Of a stretch of 41,187 bases of DNA, positions 1-5,910 are shown piece by piece. This DNA comes from an uncultured beta proteobacterium (GTDB taxonomy: Bacteria > Pseudomonadota > Gammaproteobacteria > Burkholderiales > Burkholderiaceae_C), in the NCBI GenBank assembly GCA_903945325.1, contig CAJAVE010000160.1, positions 1-41,187 of the forward strand. The letters are read 5' to 3'. A model generated the notes under the pieces. The model did no database searches. It was not told the origin of the DNA and saw only the letters and a program-made list of their open reading frames with translations. Position 1 is the first letter of the stretch; each line of letters starts with the position of its first letter. The position numbers were made by a program, and so were the translations under genes.

Positions 1-978
1 AGCATGATGCCGCGCAAACCCCGCAATGAAATCTACAACGCGCTGGGCCTGGCCAAGCAGGGCAAGACCCTGTTCTACCGCGACTTTTTGTTCCATCTGC
101 GCCATTCCAGCGACCAGTTTCGCATTGCGCCGGGTATCAAGGGCATGGTCATGCTGGTGTTTGACCTGCCCTCATTTCCCTACGTGTTCAAGGTCATCAA
201 GGACTACTACCCGCCGCAGAAAGACACTACGCGGGAGCAGATCAAGGGCAAGTATCTGCTGGTCAAGCAGCACGACCGCGTGGGCCGCATGGCCGACACG
301 CTGGAGTACAGCGAAGTGGGTTTTCCGCGCGACCGTTTCAGCGATGAACTGATAGCCGAACTGGAAAAGTTTGCGCCCAGCCAGCTGGAGGTCAGCGACC
401 GCGATGGCGATGGCCGGGTCGAGGTCATCATCAAGCACGTCTACATCGAGCGGCGCATGATCCCGCTCAACATCTATTTGCAGGAGGCGTTTGACGCTGG
501 TGGCGCCAACGCCGCCGACACCAGCCCGGCGGCCGTGCGCGCCCGCGAGCAGATCGAGCGCGGCGTGGTGGAGTACGGCAAAGCCATCAGGGATTTGGTG
601 TCCGCCAACATCTTCCCCGGCGACATGCTGTGGAAGAACTTCGGCATCACCCGCCACGGCAAGGTGGTGTTTTACGACTACGACGAGATCGAATACATCA
701 CCGATTGCAACTTCCGCAAGGTGCCCGCGCCGCGCAATGAGGAAGAAGAGATGTCAGGCGAGGTTTGGTACAGCGTTGGCCCGCACGATGTGTTCCCCGA
801 AACCTTTGGCCCCTTTCTGCTGGGCAACCCGGTGGTGCGCAGCATCTTCATGCAACACCATGCTGACTTGCTGGAGGCGTCGTTCTGGCAAGCACACAAG
901 GATCGCATCCTCGCAGGGTACGTGCATGACGTTTTTCCGTATGATCAGGACAAGCGATTCAAGGGTTCGGTGAAGTGA
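1..978 (+). CDS. aceK: Isocitrate dehydrogenase kinase/phosphatase, C-terminal part (cut by window start)
   Basis: AceK phosphorylates and dephosphorylates isocitrate dehydrogenase, which sets the split of carbon between the TCA cycle and the glyoxylate bypass. The frame is open from base 1, so the start lies outside the window; about 325 residues of a family of roughly 600 are visible. Seen: the nucleotide-binding segment [19 protein letters not shown] followed by VFKVIKD, whose lysine matches the ATP-contacting lysine of the family, and the catalytic stretch [13 protein letters not shown] followed by [11 protein letters not shown]. The methionines at 4 and 7 are internal and are not starts. 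A 91-bp gap without recognisable signals separates it from the next gene. Identification is secure. Confidence 0.97.
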
Positions 979-1069
979 CCCAAAGTCAGCGTTCAGTGCC
1001 AAAGTTGGCTATACGGGGCTCCATCGCTTTGCGTTCAACCCTTCCTTAAAACTAATACAAAGCAAGCGC

Positions 1070-2497
1070 GTGCGGTCCATCAAGAATTTCCTTGTTACGT
1101 TTCTCGATACACTGTTTATTCACACGATTCGAGGGTCACTCTTGATTGGCGGCGCGGTGTTGCTGCTATCTCACACCGGCGCATGGCAATACTTTTCCAG
1201 CAGCATGTTGGCCCATGATATGAAGCGGGCGGCGCATTGGGCCCCCAATGCTTCGATGAGCCCCAAGGTCGTGGTCGTCGCGGTTGATGACGCCGGCTAC
1301 CAAGGGTTTTTCTCCGCGAAATCACCCGTTGACCGACACCAGGTTCGACAACTGCTGGAAGCGGTGGCTCTCCATGCGCCCAATGCGAAACAAATTGTTG
1401 TAGACCTTGATCTCTCTCCAGTTCCCGGGCAGGTTACCGGACAACAGGCACTGGACGATTTGCTGCTGCAATCACCCGCGCGATGGGTGCTGGTTGCTGC
1501 CAACTCTGGAGCCGCTGCCGACATGGCCGCGCAAACCCAATGGCGAGCAAAGCTGTGCGAGCGCGGTGTGCGCTTTGGTATGCCCAGTGTTCCCATGGAG
1601 TTTGGCTACCCTCGATTGACGCACCAATACCAAAATGGGCTGGCCGCGACAGCCTTGCTGCCAGCTGCCAGCTGTGCGGAGCCAATAACAACGCTCAGCC
1701 AGACGGTTATGCCCCTGTCAGCCCCTATGTTGCAGGGTGGGCTGGTTATTCCGTTTAGTGGCGATACGAATGTGCTCAGGGGTGTGCTGGATGCGATCGA
1801 CCCCGAATGGGTGGTGGTGGGTGGGGCATGGGGTAGCACCGATATTTTTGCTACACCGTTTGGTGACCGCTTTGGTGTCCAGGTGCATGCGGCAGCCCTT
1901 GTCGGGGCGGCAGAGCATCAACGCGTTGCACCCTACATAGTCCAACTGCTGATCGCTTGGCTTTTTGTGGGGTTCATCACAGTGGTGCTTGGTGTTTTTT
2001 CTACCATTTCGAATCGCTGGTTTAAGCCGCCTAACGAGGCAATGGTCGGACACACGTTCTTTGTGACGAGTGTGCAGCCACTAGTATTCACATTGCTGGT
2101 CCTTGGTCTGCTACTCGCTCTTGCCGAAGCGTTGAGCGTTGTTCACGCACGCACTGGTTTCTGGATCCCGTCCGGCGTTGTCGGTTGCACGACCCTTGCG
2201 GCGGTGTTCTTTGTTTGGAATTGGGGCAAGGCTGCTGCACGCGCGCATGACGGGTTCAAAGCGGCGTGGGCCAAAGTGGTCAGTCAGCCCATCAAGAAAG
2301 ACATTCAGAGTATTCTTATTGCGTTGAAAACCCTCAGGCGAGGCTCCCAACCCTGTGCGTGGGGTTTGGGGCATGACAATGTGTTGATCAGTCGGCAGCG
2401 GGCAGCTTTCGAAGGAGTTTTTGCATTGGTTAGCCTGACAATGCAAACGATAGCGCCGTTGGCATCGGTGGCGTACGCGGTGCTCAAACCGCTTTGA
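1070..2497 (+). CDS. CHASE2-domain membrane sensor without an output domain
   Basis: CHASE2 is an extracytoplasmic sensory domain usually joined to a kinase, cyclase, GGDEF or CHAT/caspase output. Seen in this 475-residue protein: an N-terminal membrane helix (about 20-35), a periplasmic CHASE2-like region (about 50-285) with KVVVVAVDDAGY, the strand QIVVDLDLSP and the terminal GVQVHAAALVGA, then three membrane helices (about 288-310, 331-350, 364-384) as in CHASE2 proteins. Only about 90 cytoplasmic residues follow, and no catalytic domain is recognisable in them. The start is GTG with a weak ribosome site; no better start precedes the CHASE2 region. It is the first of five same-strand genes ending with a caspase-like protein, which may supply the missing output in trans (inference). 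CHASE2 assignment is by motif and topology. Confidence 0.8.
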   Translation: MRSIKNFLVTFLDTLFIHTIRGSLLIGGAVLLLSHTGAWQYFSSSMLAHDMKRAAHWAPNASMSPKVVVVAVDDAGYQGFFSAKSPVDRHQVRQLLEAVALHAPNAKQIVVDLDLSPVPGQVTGQQALDDLLLQSPARWVLVAANSGAAADMAAQTQWRAKLCERGVRFGMPSVPMEFGYPRLTHQYQNGLAATALLPAASCAEPITTLSQTVMPLSAPMLQGGLVIPFSGDTNVLRGVLDAIDPEWVVVGGAWGSTDIFATPFGDRFGVQVHAAALVGAAEHQRVAPYIVQLLIAWLFVGFITVVLGVFSTISNRWFKPPNEAMVGHTFFVTSVQPLVFTLLVLGLLLALAEALSVVHARTGFWIPSGVVGCTTLAAVFFVWNWGKAAARAHDGFKAAWAKVVSQPIKKDIQSILIALKTLRRGSQPCAWGLGHDNVLISRQRAAFEGVFALVSLTMQTIAPLASVAYAVLKPL

Positions 2498-2521
2498 ATA
2501 TGATGAAGTGTGGAGAAGTGA

Positions 2522-3265
2522 ATGAACTTTCGCGCAATTTTGATGTTGCTGATCGGGCTGGTCGGTGCACAGAGCAGTCAGGCAACATCGTGTATGGTCA
2601 TTGGAGAAAAATCCGCACGGGTTCAATCCGCTGAAGGTCAGAAGTCGCCGTATTTTTTTACCCAATCCTGCGAAAGTTTGCGCCTGATTTCTGGTAGGGC
2701 CATGGTGACGTGGGTTGCCCGCGACGGGAAACCCAACTTTGCCCCTATTGCCTCTACTGGCCCAGAGCGGGTTCCGAACGCGGGAGTGGAGGAGCGGGCG
2801 GGTGAAGCGTTCTGGAGCGAGCTGACATCCAAGCGCGAATTGCAGCGCTCAGCGTCCATGCGCGGTTTCGGCGATCCCAAACCTGCACCTGTATATATTC
2901 CAGTGGAGGGGTTGGAGCTGCCGTTAAAGGCAGACCTTGCCTTTCGCATCTATGCGCTGGATGGCGATACCAGGAGTCTTGTTCTTGAAGCGCCCAATGC
3001 CGCACGGGTTCGTTTGACTCGGGAGTTGATCAAGCCGGGGCTCACCTACATCTTGGATTGGAACCATGGTGAAGGGCCGAACAAGTGGAAAGTCCTGGGT
3101 CAGCAAGAGATGAACCATATTGATGTGCAATACCAAGAGGTACAGAGAGTGGTATCTGATGAAGCCCAGCGCCTACTGGTTATCGCGCTGCTGTACCGAC
3201 AATTGAAATTGTCCGTGAACGCAGACGTTGCAACGTCTGAGCTTCAGTCCATGCTGCAACCATAG
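2522..3265 (+). CDS. Exported protein of unknown function in the CHASE2-caspase cluster
   Basis: I do not recognise this 247-residue protein. It begins with a signal peptide (hydrophobic about 4-16, likely cleavage near QSSQA-T at 22). The mature part has two cysteines (about 24 and 50) that could form a disulfide, a beta-rich middle section with FRIYALDGDTRSLVLEAP (about 141-158), and a helical C-terminus (about 183-245). No catalytic motif is evident. The ATG follows a GGAGAAGTG-type ribosome site and lies 24 bp after the CHASE2 gene; the next gene starts 11 bp after its stop, so co-transcription is likely. A periplasmic role beside the CHASE2 sensor is inferred from location only. Confidence 0.75.
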   Translation: MNFRAILMLLIGLVGAQSSQATSCMVIGEKSARVQSAEGQKSPYFFTQSCESLRLISGRAMVTWVARDGKPNFAPIASTGPERVPNAGVEERAGEAFWSELTSKRELQRSASMRGFGDPKPAPVYIPVEGLELPLKADLAFRIYALDGDTRSLVLEAPNAARVRLTRELIKPGLTYILDWNHGEGPNKWKVLGQQEMNHIDVQYQEVQRVVSDEAQRLLVIALLYRQLKLSVNADVATSELQSMLQP

Positions 3266-3276
3266 AAACTCCCTCG

Positions 3277-4035
3277 ATGCACAATTTCCGAACAACATTG
3301 CTGCTGCTGGTCTCATTGGCTGGCGTGCACTGCTTGGCCCAACCGATCAGCAGCCAATCTCAGCCATCAGAATCTGCTGTCGCAGCCGCACAGCAAAGAG
3401 TTTTGGATTGCACCCGCACGCTGCCAATTCTGGTGCAGGAGGCATCGATCCAACAGATTCAGCAGGCCTGCCAGGACAAGTACGGGCTCGAAGGCAGCTA
3501 TGTGAATACGTGCCTGACCCAAATTCGGCAGATTTATACCGCCGAGGGCAAGTCTTTCCCTCTCGATGACTTGGCCATTCGGGGCCAATGTTCGGCGCGG
3601 GAACGCATTGCAGGCATCACCCGGCAGCCATTTGATGCGCCGGAGGTCGTTCAATCAAAGCCAACCGACGCCGCTTCGTTGATCTGGCCTATGGGTGGTG
3701 ATGTGGTCGACGGGTTTAAGGAAGGTGGTGACGTCGGAATTGGCATCACCGGGTTCAAAGGGGCAACGGTGGTTGCTGCGGCAGACGGTACGGTCGTTGG
3801 TTTAGAGGCCGCTGGGCTGTTCAATGGGAGTCGTTTGCTCATCCGCTCTGCAGCGCTTTTTACCGCTTACGCCAACTTTGGAACGGCGAATGTGAGGAGG
3901 GGTGATGCCGTCTCACAAGGTCAGAAAATTGCCGAGATGGGGGACGACAAAAAGTTGTTCTTCAAAGTTTTTACAGTGGTTTCAGATCGAAAAATTGTGG
4001 CACTTGACACATTGAAATCATTGCCAACACGCTGA
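3277..4035 (+). CDS. Exported LytM/M23-like protein, apparently non-catalytic, with an N-terminal four-cysteine domain
   Basis: The 252-residue product has a signal peptide (1 to about 21), a domain with DCTRTLP and QACQDKYGLEGSYVNTC (about 41-95) and a LytM-like domain (about 135-245) with IWPMGGDVVDGF, GATVVAAADGTVVG and RRGDAVSQGQKIAEMG. In active M23 peptidases zinc is bound by an HxxxD motif and an HxH motif. Here the first position reads GDVGIGITG and the second LFFKVF, so the ligands are missing. Family members without these ligands (EnvC, NlpD) act as activators of cell-wall amidases rather than as enzymes. The cysteine domain recurs in the next gene. The start follows the previous stop by 11 bp. 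Fold assignment is fairly sure; an activator or binding role is inference. Confidence 0.8.
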   Translation: MHNFRTTLLLLVSLAGVHCLAQPISSQSQPSESAVAAAQQRVLDCTRTLPILVQEASIQQIQQACQDKYGLEGSYVNTCLTQIRQIYTAEGKSFPLDDLAIRGQCSARERIAGITRQPFDAPEVVQSKPTDAASLIWPMGGDVVDGFKEGGDVGIGITGFKGATVVAAADGTVVGLEAAGLFNGSRLLIRSAALFTAYANFGTANVRRGDAVSQGQKIAEMGDDKKLFFKVFTVVSDRKIVALDTLKSLPTR

Positions 4036-4101
4036 GCACTTGGCCGGCAATTGGCACAGCATCCTCTTCTTGCAAACGGTTTATTCGATCTGTCCCACAC
4101 A

Positions 4102-4464
4102 ATGAACGTCACTTTACGCCTCGCCATCACCTTACCGTTCATACTGAGCGCTTGCAGTGTCCCCGTTTCCGTAGACCCCGCCCGGGAGGCCAATGAGCAG
4201 GCGGTTGCGCCGCGCATTGCGGATTGCATGCGCACGCTGCCGTCGTTGGTGCCAGGCATTGATGCCAAACAGGTGCGTCAGGCCTGCTGGGACAAATATG
4301 GGCTGCATGGGACTTACGTCGACGCTTGTTACCAACGCGCGGTGCGCATTGCGGCAAGCGAGAAGATTGCGCCGCCAAAAGATACGACCGAATCCTACGA
4401 GTGGCGCCGGCGCTGCTCGGACCGGCAAGACTTTCCCCAGTTCAAATCACAACCCTACAACTAG
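4102..4464 (+). CDS. Small lipoprotein with the four-cysteine domain of its neighbour
   Basis: This 120-residue protein has a lipoprotein signal ending in a lipobox, LSAC (Cys18), so it should be anchored to a membrane facing the periplasm. Residues 38-82 match the N-terminal domain of the preceding LytM-like protein closely: DCMRTLP against DCTRTLP, and QACWDKYGLHGTYVDAC against QACQDKYGLEGSYVNTC. A further shared cysteine follows in RRCSDR / GQCSAR. The even set of conserved cysteines suggests two disulfides. An upstream TTG at 4051 would add 17 residues that spoil the lipoprotein signal, so the ATG at 4102 is preferred. The next gene starts 20 bp downstream. Function unknown; the two proteins probably arose by domain duplication. 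Confidence 0.78.
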   Translation: MNVTLRLAITLPFILSACSVPVSVDPAREANEQAVAPRIADCMRTLPSLVPGIDAKQVRQACWDKYGLHGTYVDACYQRAVRIAASEKIAPPKDTTESYEWRRRCSDRQDFPQFKSQPYN

Positions 4465-4484
4465 CCTCAGGCTACGATGAATCC

Positions 4485-5426
4485 ATGAATCGCATTCTGT
4501 TGAAATTTAAGTTTGTCCTGTCGTGTGTGGTGATGGGTTCGGCTGCCTGCCTCGTACTGCAATCGAATGCGGCGGTTGCAGCCGTGTCTGAGCGGCGCGT
4601 CGCACTGGTCATTGGTAATGCCAACTACGCGGGAGTGGCCAAACTACGGAATCCGGCCAATGATGCACGTGCGATGACACGCGCCTTGAAGGACCTGGGG
4701 TTTGATGTCATCGAGCGCATTGATGCGACGCAGAAAGAAACCAACCGCGCCATTGCTCAATTTGGCGAGAAACTGGATGCCGGCACTACGGCTGTGTTTT
4801 ATTACGCTGGGCACGGGATGCAGGTCAGGGGGAAAAATTACCTGATTCCCGTGGATGCTGAAATTAGTTCCGAGTCTGCGGTGCGTACCGAAACGGTCGA
4901 TGTGGACGTGCTGCTGGATCAGTTTGCTACCCGCAGCAGCACGCTCAATGTGGTGATTCTGGATGCCTGTCGCAATAACCCGTTTGAACGCAAATTCAGG
5001 AGCGCAGCGGGCGGTGGTCTGGCACAAATCGAGGCGCCAGAAGGCACCATGATTGCCTATGCCACTGCGCCGGGCAAAGTTGCATCAGACGGTACTGGAG
5101 AAAACGGGTTGTTCACGCAGGAATTGCTCAAAGCTATTCGTCAGCCTGGCCGTGCTGTCGAGCAAGTTTTCAAGGACGTCAGGCGCAATGTGATGAAAGC
5201 GACCGGCGGCGAGCAGACGCCATGGGAGTCATCATCGCTTACTGGTGATTTCTATTTTGCGGCACCCAATACCAAAGCAAATGCCGTCGCTATGGAAGCC
5301 CCCCAGCCTGCAGTTGGAGAGACGGATGCGACAGGCAAAGGGAAAACCACTGCTCCCTCAAGCACGGATGCACAGACAAAGGCTGCAATCGAAAAAAGGC
5401 TGCGCGATTTCGTAAACGCACGGTAA
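4485..5426 (+). CDS. Exported caspase-like cysteine peptidase (family C14)
   Basis: The 313-residue product has a signal peptide (1 to about 33, ending AVAA) followed by a caspase/metacaspase p20-type domain (about 37-255). Seen: RVALVIGNANYAGVAKLRNPANDA at its start, the catalytic histidine in FYYAGHG (His110) and the catalytic cysteine in ILDACRNNPF (Cys162), so both dyad residues are present. The C-terminal 50 residues are low-complexity with a short helix. The signal peptide puts the enzyme outside the cytoplasm, unlike most bacterial caspase-like effectors. Start: the ATG at 4485 gives a clean signal peptide, whereas the longer frame from 4326 overlaps the lipoprotein gene. It is the last gene of the cluster. 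Substrate and trigger are unknown; control by the CHASE2 sensor is inference. Confidence 0.92.
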   Translation: MNRILLKFKFVLSCVVMGSAACLVLQSNAAVAAVSERRVALVIGNANYAGVAKLRNPANDARAMTRALKDLGFDVIERIDATQKETNRAIAQFGEKLDAGTTAVFYYAGHGMQVRGKNYLIPVDAEISSESAVRTETVDVDVLLDQFATRSSTLNVVILDACRNNPFERKFRSAAGGGLAQIEAPEGTMIAYATAPGKVASDGTGENGLFTQELLKAIRQPGRAVEQVFKDVRRNVMKATGGEQTPWESSSLTGDFYFAAPNTKANAVAMEAPQPAVGETDATGKGKTTAPSSTDAQTKAAIEKRLRDFVNAR

Positions 5427-5439
5427 CCATGCGTCTGGC

Positions 5440-5910
5440 CTAAGCCTCCCCCCCAAAGCGTTTGACCAGGTTGTCAATGTACTGCTCGGTCATCTTTTCG
5501 AACTCGGCTTCAACCAGCGGTGCCACCACGATTTTCATCAGCGCAGGCAGGGGAATGGTCAATGCTCCTTCGATGCTCAGCACCACTTTGGTGGATTTCT
5601 TGTTGCCGGTGATCTGCCAGTTACCCGACACCAAAGCATTGCCTTCGCCCGCCACCGGTGTCCAGACGACCGTGCCTTTGGCCTTGTCGCTCACATGCCT
5701 GGATGCATACACGGTTTGCAGGTTGACCTGTGCCAGTCCGATTTTTGCCATCTCCCAGCGGTAGGCACCGCCACCCAGATCGATGAGCTTGTCAACGCCG
5801 GGGTAAAAGCTGGCGGATGTGGGCACGTCGGCCAGTACATCAAAAACTTCCTGGAAAGACGCCTTGACGTCGAACTCATAACCCAATTCGACATTGACTG
5901 TAATAGACAC
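5440..5910 (-). CDS. SRPBCC (START-like) family protein
   Basis: This 156-residue protein shows the SRPBCC pattern: an N-terminal strand, then the helix FQEVFDVLADVPTSASFYPGV typical of polyketide-cyclase/CoxG-like members, alternating beta-strands (VVWTPVAGEGNALVSGNW; TKVVLSIEGAL), and a long C-terminal helix (about 125-152, ending IDNLVKRFGG). The fold forms a hydrophobic pocket; the ligand cannot be read from sequence. It is convergent with the caspase gene (stops 13 bp apart) and shares its direction with the exonuclease gene upstream. A GGAGCAA ribosome site sits a few bases before the ATG. The family call is good, but a specific role is unknown. Confidence 0.82.
   Translation of the reverse strand: MSITVNVELGYEFDVKASFQEVFDVLADVPTSASFYPGVDKLIDLGGGAYRWEMAKIGLAQVNLQTVYASRHVSDKAKGTVVWTPVAGEGNALVSGNWQITGNKKSTKVVLSIEGALTIPLPALMKIVVAPLVEAEFEKMTEQYIDNLVKRFGGEA

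Follow-up and report, generated by a model that had tools for sequence, protein, structure and literature searches.

Two neighbouring plus-strand genes of an uncultured beta proteobacterium encode P1 and P2, diverged tandem paralogues that share a domain of ~85 residues with four aligned cysteines. The genes lie in a stretch of 41,187 nucleotides, positions 1–41,187 of its contig, which is referred to here as the window. The domain is lineage-specific and was duplicated inside one locus. In P2 it stands alone behind a predicted lipoprotein signal, and in P1 it is followed by a LytM domain of the NlpD type. The locus therefore presents an NlpD-type regulator, apparently devoid of a metal site and of LysM, that carries an orphan domain and sits in a row of CHASE2 and caspase genes.

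Two copies of a four-cysteine domain

P1 (3277..4035, plus strand; 252 amino acids) consists of a signal peptide, the four-cysteine domain (3382..3639; C45, C65, C79 and C105) and a degenerate LytM domain at approximately residues 130–252 (3664..4032), the last delimited by alignment with NlpD-like sequences. P2 (4102..4464, plus strand; 120 amino acids) is a predicted lipoprotein that carries the four-cysteine domain only (4201..4461; C42, C62, C76 and C105). Both copies of the domain match a profile built from our own alignment, and their limits were drawn with the help of the alignments for P1 and of AlphaFold2 helices for P2. The start of P2 was taken, as a matter of judgement, to be the ATG at 4102, which gives a 120-residue protein with a lipobox, in preference to the TTG at 4051. 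Each protein has one extra cysteine in its signal region. In P2 this is C18, which ends an LSAC lipobox and is directly followed by serine (both by eye). In P1 it is C19, which is preceded by histidine, so that there is no standard lipobox; judging from these residues, the site may be a decayed one.

The first-pass annotation had placed a shared domain at 3277–4464 on the strength of two motifs and a further common cysteine, and both the coordinates and the motifs are right. DCTRTLP contains D44-C45 of P1 and DCMRTLP contains D41-C42 of P2. The second motif reads QACQDKYGLEGSYVNTC in P1 (C65 and C79) and QACWDKYGLHGTYVDAC in P2 (C62 and C76), and the further cysteine is C105 in each protein. 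BLASTP aligns P1 with P2 at 65.1 bits (E 2e-18; 41/117 identical, signal region included). The mature proteins reach a local alignment score of 150, a value attained by 0/5000 shuffles (mean 26.3, sd 4.6, maximum 55), and with all cysteines masked the score is still 110, whereas 5000 shuffles then reach 48 at most. The likeness is thus far above chance and is not due to the cysteines alone, and the proposed tandem duplication is borne out. Over 84 aligned codons, P1 and P2 agree 47 times in position 1, 47 times in position 2 and 31 times in position 3, and the third base is shared at 18 of their 33 identical residues. Selection acting on the protein is expected to leave such a pattern, and the codon agreement indicates that the duplication is not recent.

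When P2 was modelled with AlphaFold2 on the alignment of the two domains, a single model out of five was confident, at 83.3, against 55.4, 51.9, 50.5 and 49.8 for the rest. In this model, helices span residues 26–49, 55–66, 71–86 and 95–107, each bearing one cysteine, and a hairpin turn is predicted at 67–70. The model of P1 was poor overall (46.0); its first part has helices at 29–52, 58–69, 74–89 and 98–107, and the P1 and P2 models are alike in having four helices with one cysteine per helix.

A known family that explained both copies would, by the first-pass annotation, have refuted its reading, and no such family turned up in Pfam, NCBIfam, PHROGs, PADLOC or the sequences of the PDB. The domain matched no family at E 1 in the first four libraries and none at E 10 in Pfam, and no PDB sequence scored below E 0.43. 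No Foldseek match fell under E 2.9 in the PDB or under 0.75 in a viral library. The best VIA Z-score among 145 chains was 4.7, which means little for a helical bundle.

Searches for further copies used a profile of two rows, the domains of P1 and P2, and hence two copies from one genome. Within the genus this profile matched the source genome only (0/102 others at E 0.01). P2 was searched against 101 genomes, namely the source genome and its relatives, and gave two weak matches elsewhere (E 0.004 and 0.008); on inspection by eye, one lay in a transposase-like ORF and the other in a frame overlapped by other ORFs, and both were rejected. The corresponding search with P1 found matches in 96/101 genomes, to the LytM part. 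Two P1 matches that reach N-ward, in NlpD-like proteins of G064 (from 37) and G083 (from 79), were set aside, the four-cysteine profile being unmatched there at E 10.

Wider samples gave a similar picture; the genus, family, order and phylum samples overlap, so their counts are not summed, and in the last three no more than 13 candidates were scored in any genome. The order sample yielded matches in 15/398 other genomes at E 0.05 (best 0.006). Thirteen of these 15 were read, all except the 20-residue matches in L059 and L060, and none has the cysteine pattern. Two order-level loci, L052 and L058, contain DCYRTLPKLV, which is near the first motif; the second motif is absent from them. In the family sample 3/398 others matched (E 0.0045–0.0088), none of them credibly. 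The matches in L169, from this sample, and in G041, from the P2 search, were judged to be chance, falling in a transposase-like ORF without the DC-x-RTLP motif. Transposase-like proteins from two genomes (L005 532–2547 and L169 near 1501) share the string GACWDEFSVDGAxANIC, which resembles the QACWDKYGL...C motif in its C-x13-C spacing and a matching glycine. The phylum sample contained no match to the profile (0/387 others).

Other sources gave at most matches that were judged to be chance. A scan of genome contigs examined 145 candidate stretches and found no relative. Among 88 genome stretches with a cysteine-KYG-G-Y-cysteine pattern, the best (L078, E 0.008) was a 53-residue frame inside a long ORF and was discarded. 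No relative was found in 25 stretches of viral contigs or in 10 further stretches that were read, and phages gave nothing for P1 or P2. A plasmid match at E 0.2 has cysteines at the positions of C62 and C105 and not at that of C76; it lies in a regulator-like ORF and was taken as chance. Among the matches listed in a search of the open-licence literature, in the portions of text available, neither the P1/P2 pair nor the domain is named.

Small helical cysteine-rich domains drift fast. It is accordingly an appreciable, if minority, chance that the four-cysteine domain belongs to a known family from which it has diverged too far for these searches. The two-row profile is weak and the candidates scored were capped at 13 per genome in the family, order and phylum samples, so distant relatives may have been missed; against this reading, the library searches were empty, and neither the PDB sequences (none below E 0.43) nor Foldseek (none below 0.75) offered a candidate.

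The LytM half of P1

P1 matches Pfam Peptidase_M23 over residues 154–225 with 44.2 bits (cut-off 28.7). Its best NCBIfam matches are ActS (3.6e-14) and NlpD (3.7e-13), with scores of 52.6 and 49.6 that are far below the respective cut-offs of 375 and 311. LysM is unmatched in P1 at E 1, and the four-cysteine domain occupies the position that LysM holds in NlpD. The genome, whose assembly is ~90% complete, has its own LysM-LytM NlpD elsewhere (LysM 71–113, LytM 194–288), encoded on contig C366 between pcm-like and rpoS-like genes (by eye).

For comparison, 33 M23 frames were aligned, 31 of them NlpD-like and two other M23 proteins. The rows came from the 29 loci with the best P1 matches in other genomes, supplemented by two regions of the source genome, a region of G007 and an M23 gene from a sister locus. 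Over ~118 residues, the LytM part of P1 shares 40–48% identity with the 28 NlpD-like rows from the genus, which include the own NlpD, 36–42% with three NlpD-like rows from elsewhere in the order and 28–29% with the two other M23 rows, figures that are favoured upwards by the choice of rows mainly as best P1 matches. In the tree, the two other M23 rows split from P1 and the NlpD-like rows with support of 100/100; the outgroup consists of those two rows, the branch of P1 is extremely long, the tree carries a long-branch warning, and the place of P1 inside NlpD is unsettled.

At the five metal and catalytic positions of M23 peptidases, P1 has D152, G156, N200, K226 and F228, and none of the expected residues is kept. 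All five are kept in the two other M23 rows, and the NlpD-like rows keep D in 29/31 cases and H362 and H395 in 31/31. By these alignments, the LytM half of P1 is a degenerate LytM of the NlpD type and not an active peptidase. The D/H/H remnant found in ActS is likewise missing, its positions being G156, N200 and F228 in P1. The EnvC groove residues Tyr350, Val353, Val355 and Arg405 correspond to G184, L187, I189 and D237 of P1. The hydrophobic pair is therefore kept as L187 and I189, and the Y and R, present in 31/31 NlpD-like rows, are lost; the pairing of D237 with R405 is less sure because a 5-residue insertion lies beside it.

The first-pass annotation had left it open whether the duplicated domain was fused to LytM in one copy or lost LytM in the other. 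That one copy is joined to LytM holds, and fusion is the likelier course, because the domain profile has no match in the loci of the 31 NlpD-like rows (contig ends truncate two of these frames, L011 and L023). Two copies do not suffice to prove the direction.

The NlpD-type LytM and the NCBIfam ranking of ActS and NlpD raise the question of whether P1 is a working amidase activator like these proteins, re-addressed so as to open an AmiC-type amidase when the cassette is switched on. A possible target exists, as the assembly contains one Amidase_3 match, in a protein that also has an AMIN domain, and L187 and I189 preserve the V353/V355 positions as in NlpD. This role is nevertheless doubtful for P1. 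Y350 and R405 are replaced by G184 and, in the less certain part of the alignment, D237. In the available part of a study of DipM, exchange of R589, at the R405 position, harmed both function and binding (PMC10336132). P1 has lost the D, H and H retained by ActS according to the accessible text on that protein (PMC8360153), and the NCBIfam scores are far short of their cut-offs.

The same losses might instead mean that the LytM part is a relic, with the protein kept solely for its four-cysteine domain or the gene itself decaying. The five metal and catalytic positions and two of the four tested groove positions are gone, the P1 branch is very long and the other genomes searched hold no credible copy. 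We regard this reading, too, as unlikely. The frame is intact over 252 codons and ends in LPTR, much as the own NlpD ends in LPAR. Moreover, P1 and the own NlpD agree at 68, 72 and 37 of 116 codons in positions 1, 2 and 3 (59, 62 and 32%), in keeping with protein-level selection during much of its past.

The gene row and its sister loci

On the plus strand, the final part of an aceK-like gene (by eye) is followed by the genes for a CHASE2 protein, P3, P1, P2 and a caspase-like peptidase. The CHASE2 protein (1070..2497, upstream of P3) matches Pfam CHASE2 with E 1.9e-11 and 44.5 bits (cut-off 26.3). P3 (2522..3265) has a signal-like start and nothing in Pfam over cut-off; besides the signal-like start it contains two cysteines. 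The caspase-like peptidase, downstream of P2 (4485..5426), also has a signal-like start, matches Pfam Peptidase_C14 (E 2.1e-48) and contains GHG at residues 109–111 and a DAC motif with C162. The gaps measure 24 bases between CHASE2 and P3, 11 between P3 and P1, 66 between P1 and P2 and 20 between P2 and the caspase gene. No promoter-like site was found in 900–5600, and the four terminator-like sites there compare with 5.8 in shuffles, so that the case for co-transcription is drawn from gene order and spacing. One plus-strand terminator-like site lies inside the end of P1 (3938–3964). By eye, there is no clear ribosome-binding site 5′ of P1, P2 or the caspase gene.

P3-like proteins occur in 4/102 other genomes of the genus and in 0/398 others of the order sample, and in pieces of all four congeners a CHASE2-like protein precedes P3 (by eye). 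The expectation that the four-cysteine domain would recur near other CHASE2 or caspase genes was disappointed: it is absent from five pieces of these four congeners, three of the four contigs being short. The pieces differ in their other genes, all named by eye. G102 (L046 6391–11951) has two CHASE2-like genes and a caspase-like protein whose N-part is repetitive, G045 (L047 192–8297) has CHAT/TPR-like and haemagglutinin-like proteins, and G124 (L048 1882–5277) has a caspase-like protein.

The fourth congener, G121, has aceK-like, CHASE2-like and P3-like genes in the same order as the window, on a contig that ends inside P3. A second G121 contig overlaps the first exactly by 141 bases and leads from P3 to a thiolase-like gene (names by eye). 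Because the overlapping contigs run from P3 to the thiolase-like gene, P1, P2 and the caspase gene are absent from the corresponding place in G121. The shared order argues against a mis-binned contig. The aceK-like gene (by eye) lies directly 5′ of CHASE2 in the window and in G121 alike, the two genes together spanning window 4–2497 and L049 3281–6735, which points to a shared place of the module.

A docking proposal and known systems

It is tentatively proposed, at somewhat less than even chances, that the domain shared by P1 and P2 is a periplasmic docking module, stabilised by disulfides, within a CHASE2/caspase cassette particular to this lineage. Both proteins would be exported. P2, with serine after its lipidated cysteine, would be anchored in the outer membrane, and P1 would be soluble in the periplasm. 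The shared part is most likely a small helical domain held by two disulfides. Residues C62 and C76 appear to face each other across the predicted P2 hairpin, and from this geometry the pairing would be C1–C4 and C2–C3. The C2–C3 bond would staple helix 2, the KYGLxGxYV turn and helix 3, and the C1–C4 bond would join helices 1 and 4. The genome has a single DsbB match, at E 4.4e-30, which is consistent with the predicted disulfides. A role in metal or haem binding, or in redox sensing through reversible cysteines, in place of structural disulfides is improbable for the domain: four cysteines, one per predicted helix, could serve such a role, but CxxC is absent from both copies (by eye), the proteins bear signal peptides and the genome encodes the DsbB match, and C62 and C76 seem to oppose each other across the hairpin.

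In the docking proposal, the four-cysteine domain would have taken the place of LysM, the targeting module, in an NlpD-like ancestor and would serve for docking. In Escherichia coli, NlpD is brought to the septum by its LysM domain, and its degenerate LytM domain activates AmiC, as described in the available part of PMC5533458; exchange of LysM would accordingly change the address of P1. P1 would present the groove of its metal-free LytM to a partner protein at the envelope. P2 would either anchor P1 to the outer membrane by domain–domain pairing or compete with it for the same docking site. As for the setting, CHASE2 and P3 would sense the envelope, and the exported caspase would be the component that is controlled and acts. 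Weighing against the proposal are the lone confident model of P2 and the poor one of P1, the empty fold searches, the failure to find promoter-like sites or clear ribosome-binding sites, and the want of a third copy in the genomes searched.

A bolder version is that a new disulfide-bonded domain was recruited twice into one cassette, as an outer-membrane anchor and on a metal-free, NlpD-derived LytM reader, so that the cell-wall or envelope-redox state gates the exported caspase. We consider this version a long shot; if true, a twice-recruited docking domain would tie cell-wall regulators to bacterial caspase-like proteases. To our knowledge, the cues answered by exported bacterial caspases are largely open, and the docking proposal, if true, would provide a testable handle on them. 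If it is false, the locus would still be a clear case of a lineage-specific domain duplicated within one locus.

Among known systems, NlpD itself is the nearest to P1, which is a lineage-specific variant of this known kind of regulator. The two are alike in the LytM domain (40–48% identity to the genus rows) and in the LP-x-R end that P1 has in common with the own NlpD. NlpD is an outer-membrane lipoprotein with LysM and a degenerate LytM, whereas P1 has neither LysM nor a standard lipobox and carries the four-cysteine domain instead. P1 also lacks the D, H and H and the groove Y and R of the NlpD-like rows, and it adjoins a caspase cassette rather than pcm- and rpoS-like genes.

With ActS, EnvC and DipM, P1 would share the use of a catalytically dead LytM as a docking groove, a theme of the accessible portions of PMC8360153, PMC10268282 and PMC10336132. 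ActS keeps three of the five catalytic residues (PMC8360153, in the part available), and P1 differs in keeping none. DipM conserves the four EnvC groove positions, which are linked to activation of amidases, according to the available text of PMC10336132.

The surrounding genes also have counterparts. Burkholderia BiofilmReg CHASE2 operons with LysM/FecR, as described in the accessible part of PMC5192318, place CHASE2 beside an exported protein, as here. They differ in that CHASE2 is part of a histidine kinase, and that part of the text mentions no caspase or four-cysteine protein (PMC5192318). A metacaspase–CHASE2 protein of a cyanobacterium brings both domains together, so this link is already in print (PMC3501461, in the part available). 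In that source the two domains form one protein, whereas here each is encoded by a gene of its own, and P3, P1 and P2 lie between the two. What is new here is the NlpD-type LytM partner within P1, whose metal site, judged from its aligned residues, is lost.
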